Shown here piece by piece: positions 26,905-36,425 of a DNA stretch of 53,014 bases. Under the pieces are notes generated by a model. The model saw only the letters and a list, made by a program, of their open reading frames with translations, was not told where the DNA came from and did no database searches. The stretch is from Streptomyces bohaiensis (GTDB lineage Bacteria; Actinomycetota; Actinomycetes; Streptomycetales; Streptomycetaceae): the NCBI RefSeq assembly GCF_012033785.1, contig NZ_JAAVJC010000007.1, positions 1-53,014 on the forward strand, written 5' to 3'. Numbering within the stretch: the first letter of the stretch is position 1; every line of letters begins with the position of its first letter. Both the position numbers and the translations under genes were made by a program.

Positions 26905-27288
26905 TCAGTTCTTCCTGGCCGCTGCCGCGAGACGTACGTGGGCACGACGCTCCGCGTGGGAGTCGGTGTCGGCCTTCGCCTTCTCCAACGCACGCTCGGC
27001 GCGCTCGACGTCGATCTCGTCGGCCAGCTCGGCGATCTCCGCGAGCACCGACAGCTTACCGTCAGCGTAGGAGAGGAATCCGCCGTGCACCGCCGCGACG
27101 ACCGTGCCCTGGCCGCTCTCACCGGTGGTGCGGATCGTCACGGGACCCGTCTGCAGCACACCCAGCAGCGGCTGGTGGTTGGGCATGATGCCGATGTCAC
27201 CCGACGTGGTGCGGGCGATGACCATGTCGGCCTTGCCCGACCAGACACTGCGGTCCGCCGCGACCAGCTCGACGTCCAGCTCAGCCAC
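26905..27288 (-). CDS. atpC: ATP synthase F1 subunit epsilon
   Basis: Central-stalk subunit that couples rotation and inhibits ATP hydrolysis. The 127-aa protein has the N-terminal beta-sandwich (AELDVELVAADRSVWSGKAD, GDIGIMPNHQPLLGVLQTG) and a C-terminal helical part (IDVERAERALEKAKADTD) of normal length. GTG start with TAAGGAG upstream. It is separated from atpD by 120 bases that contain a strong hairpin, unlike the tight spacing of the other F1 genes. Confidence 0.96.
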   Translation of the reverse strand: MAELDVELVAADRSVWSGKADMVIARTTSGDIGIMPNHQPLLGVLQTGPVTIRTTGESGQGTVVAAVHGGFLSYADGKLSVLAEIAELADEIDVERAERALEKAKADTDSHAERRAHVRLAAAARKN

Positions 27289-27361
27289 GATGGCTCCTTA
27301 ACGATGGAAAGCTGATGAGTGGGAAGTGGGGCCGTCTTCCGTGAACGGCTCCGGGAGTGCC

Positions 27362-27394
27362 CCGAGGGGGCGGGGCGGCACCCCGCCCCCTCGG
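27362..27394 (-). terminator. Intercistronic hairpin between atpD and atpC
   Basis: Perfect 14-bp stem CCGAGGGGGCGGGG / CCCCGCCCCCTCGG with a 5-base loop, 14 bases after the atpD stop. It could act as a partial terminator or mRNA stabiliser, lowering epsilon relative to beta. Confidence 0.7.
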
Positions 27395-27408
27395 AAACGG
27401 TCCGGGTG

Positions 27409-29780
<2,372 letters not shown>

Positions 29781-29782
29781 GC

Positions 29783-31354
29783 TCAGCCCTCGCCCAGGAG
29801 CTGGCCGTCCGAGGTCTCGAACTGCTGCTTGAACTTGTTCACCGCGACGCCGATGGCGGTGACGGTGTCCTTGGACATCTTCTGGCCCTCGCGGATGGAG
29901 GTGAGAAGGTCCTTCTCCTCGCGGCCCAGGTGGTCCAGGAGCTCCCGCTCGAAGCGGCGGATGTCGCCGACCGGGATGTCGTCCATCAGACCGTTGGTGC
30001 CGGCCCAGACGGAGACGACCTGGTGCTCGGTCGGGAAGGGGTTGTACTGCTCCTGCTTGAGCAGCTCCACCATCCGCTTGCCGCGCTCCAGGGCCGACTT
30101 CGACGCGGCGTCCAGGTCGGAACCGAAGGCGGCGAACGCCTCCAGTTCCCGGTACTGGGCCAGGTCGACACGGAGCGAACCGGTGATCTGGCGGATCGCC
30201 TTGTGCTGGGCGGAGCCACCGACACGGGAGACCGAGATACCCACGTTCAGCGCGGGGCGCTGCCCGGCGTTGAAGAGGTCGGACTCCAGGAAGCACTGGC
30301 CGTCGGTGATGGAGATGACGTTGGTCGGGATGAACGCCGAGACGTCGTTGGCCTTGGTCTCGACGATCGGCAGACCGGTCATCGAACCGGCACCCATCTC
30401 GTCGGAGAGCTTGGCGCAGCGCTCCAGCAGGCGGGAGTGCAGGTAGAAGACGTCACCCGGGTAGGCCTCGCGCCCCGGCGGGCGACGCAGCAGCAGGGAG
30501 ACGGCACGGTAGGCGTCGGCCTGCTTCGACAGGTCGTCGAAGATGATCAGGACGTGCTTGCCCTCGTACATCCACTGCTGGCCGATGGCCGAGCCGGTGT
30601 AGGGGGCGAGGTACTTGAAGCCCGCCGGGTCGGACGCGGGAGCCGCCACGATGGTGGTGTACTCCAGCGCGCCGGCCTCCTCCAGGGCACCGCGCACCGA
30701 GGCGATGGTGGAGCCCTTCTGGCCGATGGCGACGTAGATGCAGCGGACCTGCTTCTTCGGGTCGCCGGAACGCCAGTTGTCGCGCTGGTTGATGATGGTG
30801 TCGACCGCGAGGGCGGTCTTGCCGGTCTGCCGGTCGCCGATGATCAGCTGGCGCTGGCCGCGGCCGATCGGCGTCATGGTGTCGACGGCCTTGTAGCCGG
30901 TCTCCATCGGCTCGTGCACCGACTTGCGCTGCATGACCGTGGGGGCCTGCAGTTCCAGCGCGCGGCGGCCCGAGGTCTCGATGTCGCCGAGACCGTCGAT
31001 GGGGGCGCCCAGCGGGTCGACGACCCGGCCCAGGTAGCCCTCGCCGACACCGACGGAGAGCACCTCACCGGTGCGCTGCACCGGCTGGCCCTCCTCGATG
31101 CCGCTGAACTCGCCGAGCACGACGGCACCGATCTCGCGCTCCTCGAGGTTGAGGGCGAGGCCGAGGGTGCCGTCCTCGAACTTCAGAAGTTCGTTCGCCA
31201 TCGCCGAGGGAAGACCCTCGACCTTCGCGATGCCGTCACCGGCAGCGCTGACCGTGCCGACCTCTTCGCGCGAGGCGGCGTCCGGCGTGTACGACTGGAC
31301 GAAATTCTCCAGCGCGTCCCGGATCTCATCCGGCCGGATCGTGAGCTCCGCCAT
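29783..31354 (-). CDS. atpA: ATP synthase F1 subunit alpha
   Basis: Non-catalytic nucleotide-binding subunit, 523 aa. The start [19 protein letters not shown] is typical; the P-loop is [15 protein letters not shown], followed by [14 protein letters not shown], and the alpha-specific Arg region lies in [14 protein letters not shown] 132-base gap with a hairpin separates it from atpH, the longest gap within the F1 genes, and could carry a processing or regulatory element. Confidence 0.98.
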
Positions 31355-31451
31355 CTGGGTTCCCTGCTCTCCTTGTTGGGACCGTAAGTCTTCGTACGGC
31401 CCAACTCGGGCCGCTGAACACTGCTTCTTGAGTTGGTAGGGCGCGCTATCC

Positions 31452-31473
31452 GCCGGCCCGCGCACGGGCCGGC
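31452..31473 (-). other. Intercistronic hairpin between atpH and atpA
   Basis: Perfect 9-bp stem GCCGGCCCG / CGGGCCGGC with a 4-base loop in the 132-base atpH-atpA gap, 14 bases after the atpH stop. Likely an mRNA processing or stability element. Confidence 0.6.
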
Positions 31474-31486
31474 AGGACGATCGCGC

Positions 31487-32314
31487 TCAGCCGGCCATCC
31501 GGCGCCGGACCTCGTCGAGGCGGTCGGCGACGGTGCCGTGGATGACCTCGTCCCCGATCCGCACGGAGATCCCGCCGAGCACCGAGGGGTCCACATCCAG
31601 GTTCAGCTGGATGTCCCGGCCGTACATCCGGCCGAGCGCCCCGGCGAGCCGGCTTTTCTGCCCGTCGCTGAGCGGAACCGCCGAGACCACGACGGCGACC
31701 GAGCGGTTGCGCCGCTCCGCTGCCAGCCGGGACAGCGATTCCAGGCCCGCCTCCAGGCTACGTCCCCGCGGGCGGAGGACGAGCCGGGCGATGAGCCGCT
31801 GGGTGGTGGGCGCCACACGGCCGCCGAGCAGCCGCTCGACGAGACCGGTGCGCGCGGAGCGCAGCGCCTCGCCGGAGTCCTTGCCGCTGAGCGTGGCGCG
31901 CAGCTCCGGGGCCCCGGCGATGATGCGGCCGAACCGGAAGAGTTCGTCCTCCACCGAGTCCAGCGTCCCGGCGCCCTCGGCCGCGATCAGGTCGGCGGTG
32001 TCCGCCAGCTCCTCCATCGCGTCGACCAGGTCACGCGAGGTGGACCAGCGGGCACGCACCATGCCGGAGACCAGGTCGACGGCCTCGCCGCTGATCTGGC
32101 CGCCGAGGAGGCGGCCGACCAGCTCGGCCTTGGCCTCTCCCGGCTGGGAGGGGTCGGTCAGGACACGGCGCAGCGAGACCTCGCGGTCCAGCAGCGCCGT
32201 GACCTGCGCCAGGTCGTCGGCCAGGGAGGTGGCGTCCACACCGGTGGAGTCCACCAGGGTGTTCAGCCGTCCCCGCGCGGCGACCAGCGCCTCGCGGCTC
32301 ACTCCACCGGTCAT
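31487..32314 (-). CDS. atpH: ATP synthase F1 subunit delta
   Basis: Peripheral-stalk cap (OSCP-like) linking F1 to the b subunits. At 275 aa it is longer than the E. coli delta (177), with extra N-terminal sequence as known for actinobacteria. Helical N-terminal part MTGGVSREALVAARGRLNTL; C-terminal GMYGRDIQLNLDVDPSVLGG and VRIGDEVIHGTVADRLDEV match the family end. Its ATG overlaps the atpF stop by 4 bases, so the two stalk subunits are coupled. Confidence 0.95.
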   Translation of the reverse strand: MTGGVSREALVAARGRLNTLVDSTGVDATSLADDLAQVTALLDREVSLRRVLTDPSQPGEAKAELVGRLLGGQISGEAVDLVSGMVRARWSTSRDLVDAMEELADTADLIAAEGAGTLDSVEDELFRFGRIIAGAPELRATLSGKDSGEALRSARTGLVERLLGGRVAPTTQRLIARLVLRPRGRSLEAGLESLSRLAAERRNRSVAVVVSAVPLSDGQKSRLAGALGRMYGRDIQLNLDVDPSVLGGISVRIGDEVIHGTVADRLDEVRRRMAG

Positions 32315-32850
32315 CGGCCCGCCTCGGCCTTCTCCTCGAGGTCATCGAGGAAACGGTCGATGGTGCGGCTCTGACGGGCGTGGTCCTCCAGGGACTCCCC
32401 GACGAGCCGACCGGCGAGGTCGATGGCGATCTTGCCGACGTCCTGGCGCAGGGCCTCGGCCGCCTGCTGACGCTCCGCGGAGATCTGGGCGTGGCCGGCG
32501 GCGATGATCTCCTCGCGCTGGCGCTGGCCCTCCTCCCGCATCTCGGCGATCAGCGTGGCGCCCTGCTCCTGGGCCTCCTGACGCAGTCGGGAGGCGTCCC
32601 GCCGGGCGTCGTCGAGCTGCGCGCGGTACTCCTCAAGGGTCTGCCGCGCTTCGGCCTGGACGGCCTCAGCCTTCTCCATGCCGCCCTCGATGGCTTCCCG
32701 CCGCTCGTCCAGCGCCTTGTTGATGGCCGGGAGGAGCTTCTTGTGGAAGGCGAGGTAGACGACACCGATGCAGATCAGACCGATGACGATCTCAGGCCAG
32801 ACGGGCAGCAGCGGACTCTGCGGCCCGTCGGCGGCCAGCTGAATCATCAT
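32311..32850 (-). CDS. atpF: ATP synthase Fo subunit b
   Basis: Peripheral stalk subunit, 179 aa. One N-terminal membrane span (WPEIVIGLICIGVVYLAF) is followed by a long charged amphipathic helix (LDERREAIEGGMEKAEAVQA, LEEYRAQLDDARRDASRLRQ) reaching up to delta. Length is normal for actinobacteria. The start is the first of two adjacent ATGs (32850), with AAAGG upstream. It lies 40 bases after atpE. Confidence 0.96.
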   Translation of the reverse strand: MMIQLAADGPQSPLLPVWPEIVIGLICIGVVYLAFHKKLLPAINKALDERREAIEGGMEKAEAVQAEARQTLEEYRAQLDDARRDASRLRQEAQEQGATLIAEMREEGQRQREEIIAAGHAQISAERQQAAEALRQDVGKIAIDLAGRLVGESLEDHARQSRTIDRFLDDLEEKAEAGR

Positions 32851-32890
32851 GGTGGACCTTTCGTCGTGAACGGCTCGGGGGGAGGACCCG

Positions 32891-33127
32891 TCAGTTGAAG
32901 ATGAACGGGGTGACGAAGCCGATCAGGGCCAGCGCCTCGACGAGGGCGGCACCGAGGAGCATGTTCTGACGGATGAGGCCGGCGGCCTCGGGCTGGCGGG
33001 CGATGGCCTGCACGCCGTTGCCGAAGATGTAACCGACACCGATACCGGCACCGATGACGCCGATGCCGTAGCCGATGGTGCCGATGTTGCCGTTGACGGC
33101 GGCGAGGGTCTCGAAAGCAGCGGACAT
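32891..33127 (-). CDS. atpE: ATP synthase Fo subunit c
   Basis: Proteolipid of the rotor ring, 78 aa, two hairpin membrane helices joined by the polar loop ARQPEAAG. The proton-binding carboxylate is Glu64 in ALVEALALIG. There are no sodium-type coordinating residues, so H+ coupling is expected. ATG 33127 has an AAGGA Shine-Dalgarno; the frame upstream is not part of the gene. A hairpin precedes it in the atpB-atpE gap, where high translation of c is needed. Confidence 0.98.
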   Translation of the reverse strand: MSAAFETLAAVNGNIGTIGYGIGVIGAGIGVGYIFGNGVQAIARQPEAAGLIRQNMLLGAALVEALALIGFVTPFIFN

Positions 33128-33187
33128 GTCCGTGGTTCCTTCTCTGTGGTAGGCCGGTGGACATGTGTCCACCGGTCGTCTGGCGGC

Positions 33188-33231: not shown

Positions 33232-34041
33232 TCAGTGCGGCTCTTCCAGCGCGCCCGAGATGTAGGTCGCGGTGAGGATCGTGAAGACGTACGCCTGGAG
33301 CGCCTGGATGAAGAGCTCGAAGACCGTGATCACCAGGGTCATGAACAGCGAGCCGAAGGCGAAGAAGGTGCCGACGACGGTGCCGAGCATGTACCAGGCG
33401 CCGATGAGGAAGACCAGGATCAGCACGTGGCCGGCGAACATGTTGGCGAACAGACGCACGGCGAGCGTGAAGGGCCGCAGGAAGACGTTCGACAGCAGCT
33501 CGATCGGCGTGACGATCACGTAGATCGGCTTCGGCAGCCCACCCGGGACGCAGAGGTTGCGGATACCGCCGACGAAGCCGTTCGTCCTGAAGGTCACCGT
33601 CATGTAGGTGACCCAGACCACCAGCGCGAGCGCGATGGGGTAGGCGATGATCGACGACGCCGGCAGCTGGGCGACCGGGACGATGGCCCAGAGGTTGAAC
33701 ATCCAGACCGTGAAGAACAGCGTGACCAGCAGCGGGACGAAGGACTCGGCCTGCTTGCCGATGACCGCGCGGCCGATCCCGGTGCGCACGAAGTCGTAGA
33801 GGACCTCGGCGACCATCTGCAGCTTGCCCGGGACGACCTTCGCGTTGCCGAACGCCGCCCAGAAGAAGCCGACGACCAGCAGCGAGCCGAGGATCGCGAG
33901 CAGCGCCGGCTTGTTGAAGTCGAAGCCGCCGATGCTGAAGATCGGCTCGAACTGGAACGACCAGAGCGAAGGAGCGGGGTAGCCGCAGTCCTGGAAGAGA
34001 TGGCAGTCGGTCTCGAAGGCGAGCGTCTGGTCGCTATTCAC
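33232..34041 (-). CDS. atpB: ATP synthase Fo subunit a
   Basis: Proton half-channel subunit, 269 aa from the chosen start, with five to six membrane helices. The essential Arg lies in LAVRLFANMFAGHVL, and the preceding block PIYVIVTPIELLSNVFLRPF is typical. I chose GTG 34041 (NSDQTLAFETDC) because AAGGAG sits 7 bases upstream; the first in-frame ATG at 34059 would place that ribosome site inside the coding region. The gene follows atpI after 255 bases, a gap where an extra promoter is possible (TATCGT at about 34247-34252 on the minus strand). Confidence 0.94.
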   Translation of the reverse strand: MNSDQTLAFETDCHLFQDCGYPAPSLWSFQFEPIFSIGGFDFNKPALLAILGSLLVVGFFWAAFGNAKVVPGKLQMVAEVLYDFVRTGIGRAVIGKQAESFVPLLVTLFFTVWMFNLWAIVPVAQLPASSIIAYPIALALVVWVTYMTVTFRTNGFVGGIRNLCVPGGLPKPIYVIVTPIELLSNVFLRPFTLAVRLFANMFAGHVLILVFLIGAWYMLGTVVGTFFAFGSLFMTLVITVFELFIQALQAYVFTILTATYISGALEEPH

Positions 34042-34314
34042 CGCGAGCTCCTTCGGCATGACGCATGGATACGGCTACCTCGCGTGTGGGCGTGGCGGCG
34101 TGCCACGGAACGGCACTGGACTGGGTGGGTGACGGGATGAGGAGCCGGCCGGCTGCAACGCCACGCCGCCCCAAGGGAGTCCGGGGGGAACGCGCGGCTG
34201 TCCCGTGCAGCGCGCGTGCCGACATCGGCCGAGGCTCCGGCGACGGACGATAGCAGTCCGGGGTGGACCCGCGTATGCCGCCCCCCGTAAGGGCGGCGCC
34301 GACGGCGCCCGACA

Positions 34315-34758
34315 TCAGTCGGTGGCCTTGTCGTCGGTGCCGCGCGCGGTGGTGGCGGTGTCCTGGTCGGTCACCACGTAGGGGGTCTTGACCTTCAGGT
34401 TTCCCTGGATCTGACCCGCGAGCCAGGACACCATCGCCACGAAGACTCCCGCGGCGAAGAGTTGACCGTCCAGGAACGAGGCGTCCCGCAGGACGACCAG
34501 CAGGACCAGGAGGAGGAGGATCTTCGTCGTGTAGACGAAGACCGCTGCCGCCATGAGCAGATCGGGCCGGTGGTGGACCACCTTGGCCAGGGCGAACTGC
34601 CCGGACGCGAAGAAGAGAGCTCCGACGAGCACGCCGAGGCCGACGCTCACCGCCCCCTCGGACCCGCGCAGCGCGGTGGCCGCCACGAGGGCGATCGCAC
34701 CGGCCACGGCAGTGAAGAGCGCGGCGCCGCGGAGGATCCGGGCGTCGTTGGGCTGCAT
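34315..34758 (-). CDS. atpI: ATP synthase-associated protein AtpI
   Basis: 147-aa membrane protein with four hydrophobic segments (AALFTAVAGAIALVAATAL, VSVGLGVLVGALFFASGQFA, LLMAAAVFVYTTKILLLLVL, LFAAGVFVAMVSWLAGQI), basic loops and a polar tail. It occupies the atpI position at the head of the operon. Family proteins are thought to help c-ring assembly; the sequence is variable and the identification rests mainly on topology and place. ATG 34758 has GGAG upstream. The Rex-like site lies 77-94 bases upstream of the start. Confidence 0.85.
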   Translation of the reverse strand: MQPNDARILRGAALFTAVAGAIALVAATALRGSEGAVSVGLGVLVGALFFASGQFALAKVVHHRPDLLMAAAVFVYTTKILLLLVLLVVLRDASFLDGQLFAAGVFVAMVSWLAGQIQGNLKVKTPYVVTDQDTATTARGTDDKATD

Positions 34759-34834
34759 GAAGTGGTTCTCCGGCAGGCGTCAGGGGTCTTCGTTGACGGG
34801 GAGCCCCAAGAGCGAGACGCGCTCCATCGGGACT

Positions 34835-34852
34835 ACGTGAACGCTATCACAA
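34835..34852 (-). promoter_or_regulatory. Rex-like operator upstream of the atp operon
   Basis: On the minus strand, TTGTGAT-AGCG-TTCACGT matches the Rex consensus TTGTGAA-N4-TTCACAA at 11 of 14 conserved positions with exact spacing. Rex is the NADH/NAD+-sensing repressor of actinobacteria. The site also contains a TAGCGT that could be the -10 of the atpI promoter. It lies in an AT-rich island (34830-34880) that stands out from the surroundings. Confidence 0.7.
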
Positions 34853-34988
34853 ACTATTTGATGAGGTCTTTACCTAGTTCGTGTGCAGGAACTCACACGG
34901 TCGGGGTAACAGCGGCCCCATCGGTTGACGTCCGTCCGGGGGACCCCGGTGGTGTGTCCGACCGGCACGCAGGCGCAGGCCACCGGGG

Positions 34989-36425
34989 TCACGAGCCCCG
35001 CCGCGCGGAGCCGCCGGAAACGCTCCGGTGGCCCCCCTGAGCGCCGGTCTCCGACTCCTCGCGGCGCTCCCCCGCGGCCGGTTCGTCGGCCGCCGAGTGC
35101 TTCTGGGCGCCCTCGGAGTGCGCCGGGCGCACGGCGGGGTGCGCGCCGCCGCGCCGGGCCGGGGGACGCCGGGTGAACCGCCGTCGCTCCCCCACCGCCG
35201 TCGCGCCGCTGAGCCCCTTCCCCACCGCCTCCTCGCGGTCCGCGGAGAGCGTCGGCTCCGGTCTGCGGTAGCGCGGCGGCACCAGCCGCTGCGCCCACAG
35301 CGGGACCCGGGGGGTGAACCGCGGCAGCAGCAGCAGGACCAGCCCGACCGTGCTGAGCAGCACGATGATCGAGACCACCAGCATGCTCTCGCCCTGCACC
35401 GTGAACCCGAGGGTGCCGAAGGCGATCAGCGCCGACCAGAAGTACATGATCAGCACCGCCCGGCTGTGGCTGTGGCCGATCTCCAGCAGCCGGTGGTGCA
35501 GGTGCCCCCGGTCCGCCGCGAACGGCGACTGCCCGTTCCAGGTCCGCCGCACCACCGCCAGCAGCAGGTCCGCGACGGGCACCGCAATGATGGTCAGTGG
35601 CAGCAGCAGCGGGATGTAGACCGGCACCATCTCGTGGACGGTCTGGCGCACGGAGCCGGTGAAGAGGTTCAACCGGTCCGGGTCGACCTGGCCGGTCACC
35701 GACGCCGCGGAGGCCGCCATCACCAGACCCAGCAGCATCGATCCCGAGTCGCCCATGAAGATCCGCGCGGGGTGCATGTTGTGCGGCAGGAAGCCCAGGC
35801 ACATGCCGATCAGCACCGCGGAGAACAGCGTGGCCGGCGCCGCCGCCTCCACGCCGTGGCCGTACCAGAGCCGGTAGGTGTAGAGGAAGAACGCCGCCGC
35901 GGCGATGCACACCATGCCGGCGGCGAGTCCGTCCAGCCCGTCGACGAAGTTGACCGCGTTGATGGTGACGACGACCAGGGCGACCGTCAGCAGGATCGAC
36001 TGCACCGGCGTCAGCGCCACCACCCCGACCCCGGGGATCGGCAGCCAGAGGATCGCCAGCCCCTGCATCACCATGACGCCGGCCGCGATCATCTGGCAGC
36101 CCAGCTTCACCAGGGCGTCCACGCCCCACTTGTCGTCCAGCACACCCAGCAGCCAGATGAGGCCGGCGCCCGCGAGCAGCGCCCGCGGTTCGCTGGAGGA
36201 GGTGAAGACCTCACCGATGTTGGTGAGCTGCGAGGCGACCAGCAGACCGGCGCAGAGCCCGCCGAACATCGCGATCCCGCCCAGCCGCGGTGTCGGCTCC
36301 CGATGCACGTCCCGTGCGCGGATCTGCGGCACGGCTCCGACGGCGATCGCGAACTTCCGCACCGGACCGGTCAGCAGATACGTCACGGCCGCTGTCACGC
36401 AGAGCGTCAGCAGGTATTCGCGCAC
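34989..36425 (-). CDS. MraY-family phosphoglycosyltransferase (TagO/WecA-like)
   Basis: Transfers a sugar-1-phosphate, probably GlcNAc-1-P, from the UDP-sugar to undecaprenyl phosphate, starting a wall polymer such as teichoic or teichuronic acid. The 478-aa protein has about ten membrane helices. Family motifs: REPTPRLGG, the Asp-rich DDKWGVDALVKL, NFVDGLDGLAAG, and NMHPARIFMGDSGSMLLG. The last 110 residues form a basic, Arg/Ala/Gly/Ser-rich cytoplasmic tail not found in E. coli WecA. GTG start with GGGGAG. The peptidoglycan enzyme MraY is less likely because this lies outside a dcw cluster. The LCP protein at 40.6 kb could act later in the same polymer pathway. Confidence 0.88.
   Translation of the reverse strand: MREYLLTLCVTAAVTYLLTGPVRKFAIAVGAVPQIRARDVHREPTPRLGGIAMFGGLCAGLLVASQLTNIGEVFTSSSEPRALLAGAGLIWLLGVLDDKWGVDALVKLGCQMIAAGVMVMQGLAILWLPIPGVGVVALTPVQSILLTVALVVVTINAVNFVDGLDGLAAGMVCIAAAAFFLYTYRLWYGHGVEAAAPATLFSAVLIGMCLGFLPHNMHPARIFMGDSGSMLLGLVMAASAASVTGQVDPDRLNLFTGSVRQTVHEMVPVYIPLLLPLTIIAVPVADLLLAVVRRTWNGQSPFAADRGHLHHRLLEIGHSHSRAVLIMYFWSALIAFGTLGFTVQGESMLVVSIIVLLSTVGLVLLLLPRFTPRVPLWAQRLVPPRYRRPEPTLSADREEAVGKGLSGATAVGERRRFTRRPPARRGGAHPAVRPAHSEGAQKHSAADEPAAGERREESETGAQGGHRSVSGGSARRGS

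Follow-up and report, generated by a model that had tools for sequence, protein, structure and literature searches.

Rex control of an atp operon has been described in Streptomyces avermitilis. There Rex was found to bind the atpI promoter in EMSA, ChIP and DNase I footprint experiments (PMC5355995). The footprint contained TTGTGATACGGTTCACGA, and the corresponding Rex operator (ROP) is given in Table 1 of that paper, for which the mismatch limit was three, at coordinates 3533332-3533349. Our operator match in genome G216 falls at exactly these coordinates, which suggests that G216 is S. avermitilis. In the rex mutant atpI was higher. Under O2 limitation atpI fell in the wild type and in the rex mutant alike, from which the authors inferred that another regulator is involved. 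Release of Rex by NADH was shown at the S. avermitilis cydA1 promoter, and binding was shown at the atpI orthologue; probes with three mismatches had a lower affinity for Rex (PMC5355995). For S. coelicolor, SCO5366-74 are listed as Rex-repressed (PMC8981147, citing Brekasis and Paget 2003). The initial annotation of the DNA studied here had referred to reports of Rex acting on Streptomyces atp genes, and such reports exist (PMC5355995, PMC8981147). Since such control is already in print (PMC5355995, PMC8981147), a Rex operator at the present atp operon is not new as a basic finding; it is essentially published, having been demonstrated for a close orthologue. To this, sequence comparison adds how deeply the site is conserved, evidence from relatives in favour of a -10 box in the operator, a wider conserved block and a candidate leader RNA in relatives.

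The locus lies in a stretch of 53,014 bases from Streptomyces bohaiensis (the window), and its atp operon is encoded on the minus strand. The gene order after the operator is AtpI-like, AtpB, AtpE, AtpF, AtpH, AtpA, AtpG, AtpD, AtpC. The atpI-like gene (34315..34758; NCBIfam NF053722, 'Cg1360 family ATP-synthase-associated protein') is the first gene and has a GGAG ribosome site at 34771-34768. It is followed by atpB (F0 subunit a; 33232..34059; PF00119) and by atpE, atpF, atpH, atpA, atpG, atpD and atpC (26905..33172, with ORF ends taken from the mechanical list). A glycosyl transferase family 4 gene (WecA-like; 34989..36425) precedes the operon in the same orientation; it matches PF00953, with TIGR02380 below its cut-off. 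The nearest named AtpI relatives are those of S. lonarensis (96%), S. spiramenti (94%) and S. otsuchiensis (77%), which places the window in this Streptomyces clade.

Inspection of the sequence upstream of atpI, at a distance of 76 nt, showed that the minus strand from 34852 to 34835 reads TTGTGATAGCGTTCACGT, that is TTGTGAT-AGCG-TTCACGT. It has the spacing of the Rex palindrome TTGTGAA-N4-TTCACAA and agrees with it at 11/14 specified positions, the mismatches being positions 7, 17 and 18, with TTGTGA and TTCAC intact. The Rex-like site that the initial annotation had placed here, with the right spacing and the same 11 of 14 positions, was thus confirmed by sequence and by motif scan. In the whole window TTGTGATAGCGTTCACGT was the sole match to the Rex consensus with at most three mismatches, and 100 shuffles of the window gave on average 0.06 such matches, with one or more in 6/100. 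The genome (5.63 Mb) contains 21 sites at this threshold against 4 for the motif read backwards; by arithmetic from these counts, the probability that a single 150-bp promoter carries a match by chance is of order 1e-4.

In this genome one match to PF06971 (Rex N-terminal family) was over the cut-off. The same ORF matches PF02629 (CoA_binding), and its product matches solved Rex structures with E values down to 4.9e-47. The site upstream of rex, TTGTGCACGCGTTCACAA, is letter for letter the rex operator of S. avermitilis. Further sites were found upstream of cydA (1 mismatch), nuoA (2) and wblE (2), and together with those of rex and atp they make up a coherent redox/respiratory regulon, comparable to the S. 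coelicolor Rex regulon with its atp, nuo, cyd and hem/rex operons as targets (PMC8981147). Target assignment covered the better-scoring of the 21 sites, and hppA was not identified among these. With three mismatches the atp site was the weakest match among the rex, cydA, nuoA, wblE, parA-like and atp sites. The site near the parA-like gene has two mismatches and a near-identical counterpart in Table 1 of the S. avermitilis study, where that counterpart is absent from the targets reported bound in the text consulted (PMC5355995). A separate Rex-like site with two mismatches, ATGTGAATGCATGCACAA (C54), is found where a DUF3817 gene (L009:1118-1498 (-)) and a gene for a MarR-type regulator (L009:1503-2156 (+)) start divergently, and does not appear in the S. 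avermitilis table of Rex sites (PMC5355995). Another with three mismatches (C158, L018:1579-1596) is found where an ORF of the AhpC/TSA-redoxin family begins.

The operator of the window (34835..34852, minus strand) and that of the S. avermitilis atpIBEFHAGDC operon occupy orthologous positions in front of the same operon (TTGTGATAGCGTTCACGT and TTGTGATACGGTTCACGA, respectively). The window operator has one mismatch more (PMC5355995), and the distance from operator to ATG is 76 nt compared with 137 in S. avermitilis (Table 1, PMC5355995). To find how far the site is conserved, AtpI upstream regions were collected in two even draws, in which 60/61 genomes of the genus and 59/61 of the family had an AtpI match. 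The three genomes without a match (G001, G071, G074) were dropped and three genomes were common to both draws, which gave a final set of 116 regions, 67 from the genus (window included) and 49 from other genera; S. avermitilis is not among the 116. In this comparison with relatives, of a kind that the initial annotation had proposed, the operator was found at the same place in 116/116 atpI upstreams. The best match to the Rex motif had two mismatches in 115/116 regions and three in the window, and the reversed motif reached three mismatches or fewer in 0/116 and was never better than four. The extra mismatch of the window, at position 18, was common to all four members of its clade. With the regions aligned by their operators, T, A and T were found at positions 7, 8 and 12 in 116/116.

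At the level of the order, 197/197 genomes matched TTGTGATANNGTTCACNA with at most one mismatch and the reversed pattern matched in 1 genome, the location of the match being checked for part of them. In the class, 143/296 genomes matched a slightly looser operator pattern. Fifty-one loci, many of them chosen because they match, were inspected. Among the 33/51 with an exact match, 32 had AtpI or AtpB downstream and one (L186) had the glycosyl transferase upstream. The other 18/51 had one mismatch only, and atp genes were downstream in the reading direction in 2 of them; in a further three, L167-L169 (family f13), the palindrome is, by coordinates, upstream of atpB when read in the other direction. 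One genome (G119, L142) has two Rex-like palindromes, TTGTGAAATAGTTCACTA and TTGTGAAAAAGTTCACGA, 34 bp apart, and the stretch fetched there contains no atp gene.

As the order and class patterns prescribe TA, the test was repeated with the Rex consensus alone. For this 75 AtpB upstreams spread over families were used (17 supplied with the search and 58 fetched), drawn from 135 non-genus genomes, with the weakest AtpB matches among the 60 omitted. A site with at most two mismatches was present in 17/75 against 0/75 for the reversed motif, and at three mismatches the counts were 1 against 3. Positions 7-8 were TA and position 12 was T in 16/17 of these operators, the exception being from f13. 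A Rex-family match was found in all 17 genomes with a site and in 46/58 without one. Expressed the other way, a site occurred in 17/63 genomes with Rex and in 0/12 without (p=0.057), a weak correlation in which G436, absent from the Rex-family matches, was counted as lacking Rex. The marker PF06971 also matched in the E. coli control, so that PF06971 alone is no proof of Rex. In the class comparison, many Rex-bearing lineages had no atp site. Judged from these comparisons, the atp operator is old but patchy, and older than the genus Streptomyces.

A match by chance and without function, for which nothing speaks beyond the three mismatches, was rejected on the basis of the shuffles, the whole-genome control with the reversed motif, the conservation in 116/116 regions, which is position-specific, and the 17/75 against 0/75 in other families; we regard its probability as negligible. 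The proposal of the initial annotation that a Rex operator precedes the ATP synthase operon gained support from the published S. avermitilis orthologue, from the presence of the site in all 116 atpI upstreams and from a genome that encodes Rex. We concluded that the palindrome ahead of the atp operon is very probably a Rex binding site of a kind demonstrated by experiment in one related Streptomyces.

TANNNT is the Streptomyces form of the -10 box, and HrdB-type promoters have a TTGAC-like -35 at a distance of 16-18 bp. Within the operator the hexamer TAGCGT (34841..34846, minus strand) has the form TANNNT and is preceded by TGA, which resembles an extended -10, and its T, A and T were invariant in 116/116. 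The initial annotation had noted a possible -10 overlapping the Rex site; TAGCGT is indeed present at 34846-34841, and its proposed role as a -10 is backed by sequence comparison. TANNNT at operator positions 7-12 was found in 116/116 regions of the family and in 16/17 operators of other families. T7 departs from the Rex consensus and yet is as invariant as A8 and T12. As an invariant TANNNT in which one T is a mismatch to the consensus favours the reading as a -10, the pattern suggests that the same few bases may serve both as Rex operator and as part of the atp promoter. A point against this explanation is the f13 operator without TA among the 17 found by consensus, and two more f13 genomes have, by coordinates, such a site upstream of atpB. 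TANNNT in the operator register was absent from the other 20 sites of the window's genome and from the other 20 S. avermitilis sites of Table 1 (PMC5355995).

If TAGCGT is the -10, transcription is predicted from the spacing to start at 34834 (minus strand), within about 2 nt. A consensus scan of 34700-35050 detected no canonical promoter or terminator. The -10 reading is weakest at the -35. By eye, AAGACC (34865..34870, minus strand) could be a weak alternative -35, with an 18-bp spacer to TAGCGT; it has only GAC in common with TTGAC. A conserved GGTAAAG lies 21 nt from TAGCGT. Within the literature searched, a TANNNT -10 overlapping the atp operator was not found in print. Ravcheev reportedly published a comparative paper on Rex in 2012.

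A different start site can be read from the S. avermitilis study, in which the atpI footprint was placed at -50 to -22, with the operator between -35 and -10 (PMC5355995). By arithmetic this footprint implies a start 39-50 nt from the first base of the operator. The operator would then cover the -35 region, transcription would begin about 40-50 nt downstream of the operator's first base, and no -10 would lie inside the operator. S. avermitilis has TATATT at a suitable distance from the first base of the operator (28-33 nt), a box that the window lacks. In 1/116 relatives, a set without S. avermitilis, a TANNNT begins 18-40 nt from the first base of the operator; the window has none. As the methods name 5'-RACE for rex and wblE only, the main text does not show how the atpI start was obtained (PMC5355995). 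In addition, a downstream start would cut the leader RNA predicted for relatives (see below). We consider the downstream start unlikely and prefer a -10 inside the operator.

Conservation in the 116 family regions is not confined to the operator, but reaches 46 nt upstream of it. Directly upstream, at -11 to -1, lies the box CATCAAATAGT (34853..34863, minus strand; 98 to 116 of 116 per column). GGTAAAG (34868..34874, minus strand), in which GTAAAG was invariant in 116/116, occupies -22 to -16 from the operator, corresponding to -40 to -34 if the start is near 34834, and may be a -35-region element or an activator box. At -46..-29 in the family there is a second palindrome, GTGTGAGTTCCTGCACAC (34881..34898, minus strand; GTG-N8-CAC), which is Crp/GlxR-like or weakly Rex-like and has the family form GTGTGAC..GCACAC. 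GGTAAAG-N4-CATCAAA occurs exactly once in the genome, and GTGTGAN7CACAC twice, with one occurrence of the reversed control. The combination GGTAAAG-N4-CATCAAATAGT (34853-34874, minus strand) is nearly invariant in the family. Allowing one mismatch, GGTAAAG was present 13-30 nt before the operator in 10/44 loci against 1 for the reversed motif. Outside the family it was present in 9/43 operator loci (8 from f19 and 1 from f3), in four of the nine exactly at -22. Neither CATCAAATAGT nor the second palindrome could be recognized by eye in operator loci outside the family. The upstream block was not found in print within the literature searched.

The second palindrome was also tried as a tandem Rex operator and rejected. 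GTGTGAGTTCCTGCACAC has four mismatches and the commoner form in relatives has five, and as five mismatches are reached by the reversed motif by chance, the palindrome was left as Crp-like or other.

The upstream block bears on a reading in which the conserved sequence consists of a promoter and sites of other factors (GTGTGAC..GCACAC, GGTAAAG, CATCAAATAGT), Rex binding being weak or incidental here and the site having drifted to three mismatches. Such drift would agree with the position-18 mismatch common to the four members of the window clade, with the lower affinity of probes carrying three mismatches (PMC5355995), and with a family conservation that extends 46 nt upstream and a GGTAAAG that reaches other families. 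It is hard to reconcile with TTGTGA and TTCAC being intact in the window, and with the Rex palindrome being kept outside the family in loci that show nothing else of the block. We regard this reading as very improbable.

The form of the two palindromes raises the question of Crp. GTG-N8-CAC, the GlxR form (PMC10033298), is present both at 34881-34898 and in the operator at 34835-34852. The Streptomyces Crp form GTG(N)6GNCAC (PMC10033298) is not exactly matched by either palindrome, the required G missing in both on either strand. In Corynebacterium glutamicum GlxR activates atpBEFHAGDC (PMC7026483), and the window with its two palindromes resembles this arrangement of a CRP-type regulator ahead of an actinobacterial atp operon; GlxR is, unlike Rex, a cAMP-dependent activator (PMC7026483). 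The window's genome has Crp-type HTH matches, the best with 65.8 bits. From the fit to GTG-N8-CAC, the GlxR activation in C. glutamicum and the Crp-type proteins in the genome, a cAMP input beside Rex is plausible, and it would fit the O2 response that Rex alone leaves unexplained. It could further be argued that Crp, instead of or besides Rex, uses both the operator and 34881-34898 and activates as GlxR does, and S. avermitilis atpI does behave as if a second regulator acts (PMC5355995). The outer TT and the set of sites (rex, cydA, nuoA, wblE) are those of Rex, and Rex itself was footprinted directly on the orthologue (PMC5355995). A role of Crp at the operator is therefore distinctly unlikely in our judgement, and we retain Rex as the protein that would bind there.

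For many of the Streptomyces studied, folding predicted a three-way junction just after the operator. When sequences were folded singly, 46/68 genus and 27/49 other-genus loci were predicted to form a multiloop. RNAalifold on the raw MAFFT alignment A1 (62 sequences) returned 4 pairs only, of which 3 were changed on both sides, a low yield that we attribute to A1 being poorly aligned in P1 and P3. For this reason a model, R1, was built from 16 hand-chosen, easily aligned genus sequences, a choice that biases it towards the common form. In these 16 sequences 4 pairs were changed on both sides, a number reached by 29/500 shuffles, and the covariation score was reached by 0/500, which is modest. 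At an E value of 0.002, R1 matched directly behind the operator in 58/66 genus loci (window excluded), leaving 8/66 unmatched (L027, L028, L029, L031, L057, L066, L078, L096). In other genera it matched 13/49 loci and left 36/49 unmatched; the larger search with 70 matches recovered 12 of the 13. Immediately after the atp Rex operator, the three-way-junction RNA occupies L076:1453-1524 (-) and the matching places in 70 loci. Over the 70 matches 19/22 pairs were changed on both sides (90 cells), either value being reached by 0/500 shuffles, and slid controls gave at most 10 pairs and 39 cells; alignment A5 was fitted to the structure, and these counts lean towards it. At the same places 15/77 R1 matches were antisense to the leader, which we put down to the long stems scoring on either strand.

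In S. avermitilis (L147) the same fold shape is present with other letters and was not found by R1. Unlike in S. avermitilis, the three-way junction was not found in the clade of the window: R1 had no match in the window or in L223-L228, the six loci from its nearest named relatives, and the distance from operator to ATG is only 75-79 nt in the window and the three nearest relatives. Where relatives have the junction, the predicted fold of 34745-34834 in the window gives a stem-loop (34802..34834, minus strand); this fold was no better than shuffles (z -0.47). Rfam had no match in the window region, and in five loci it gave two sub-threshold matches, neither at the leader. An atp leader RNA was not found in print within the literature searched and is unnamed in the text consulted of PMC2864571 and PMC11109978. 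We regard the leader RNA of relatives as a candidate. With stem P1 opening 2-3 nt beyond the operator, transcription in those species would have to start at or before the operator's end.

Taken together, the reading that we favour, with a probability of roughly 80%, is that the -10 region of the atp promoter lies within the Rex operator and that Rex represses at low NADH/NAD+. At a low ratio a Rex dimer on TTGTGATAGCGTTCACGT would cover the -10 (TAGCGT) and the start point, so that RNA polymerase could not engage. When NADH rises, Rex would be released and atpI-B-E-F-H-A-G-D-C transcribed. The mismatch T7 would belong to the -10 box, which would explain why the operator is off-consensus in every case here, and from an off-consensus operator repression of ATP synthase should be partial. 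For this locus we infer the binding of Rex, the -10 overlap and the start site; binding and repression are published for S. avermitilis (PMC5355995). The tie of ATP synthase expression to NADH/NAD+ put forward in the initial annotation is supported by the higher atpI of S. avermitilis without Rex, with the caveat that the fall under O2 limitation also occurs without Rex (PMC5355995).

A broader version, to which we give slightly less than even odds, is that of a fused operator-promoter TTGTGA-TANNNT-TCAC, kept in one register from the Streptomyces family to several more families of the class (f3, f10, f19, f28, f32, f35 and f42), with GGTAAAG at a nearly fixed upstream distance in some. It would be a deliberately imperfect Rex site, and the Streptomyces transcript would open with the three-way-junction RNA as a post-transcriptional layer on ATP synthase, lost in the clade of the window.

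The locus confirms the known link from the NADH/NAD+ ratio to the supply of ATP synthase. A -10 built into the operator would, if true, explain the imperfect Rex site in every relative examined and offer a simple mechanism based on steric hindrance. If true, the leader RNA of relatives would add a hitherto undescribed control element to a central operon, and it can be tested directly.
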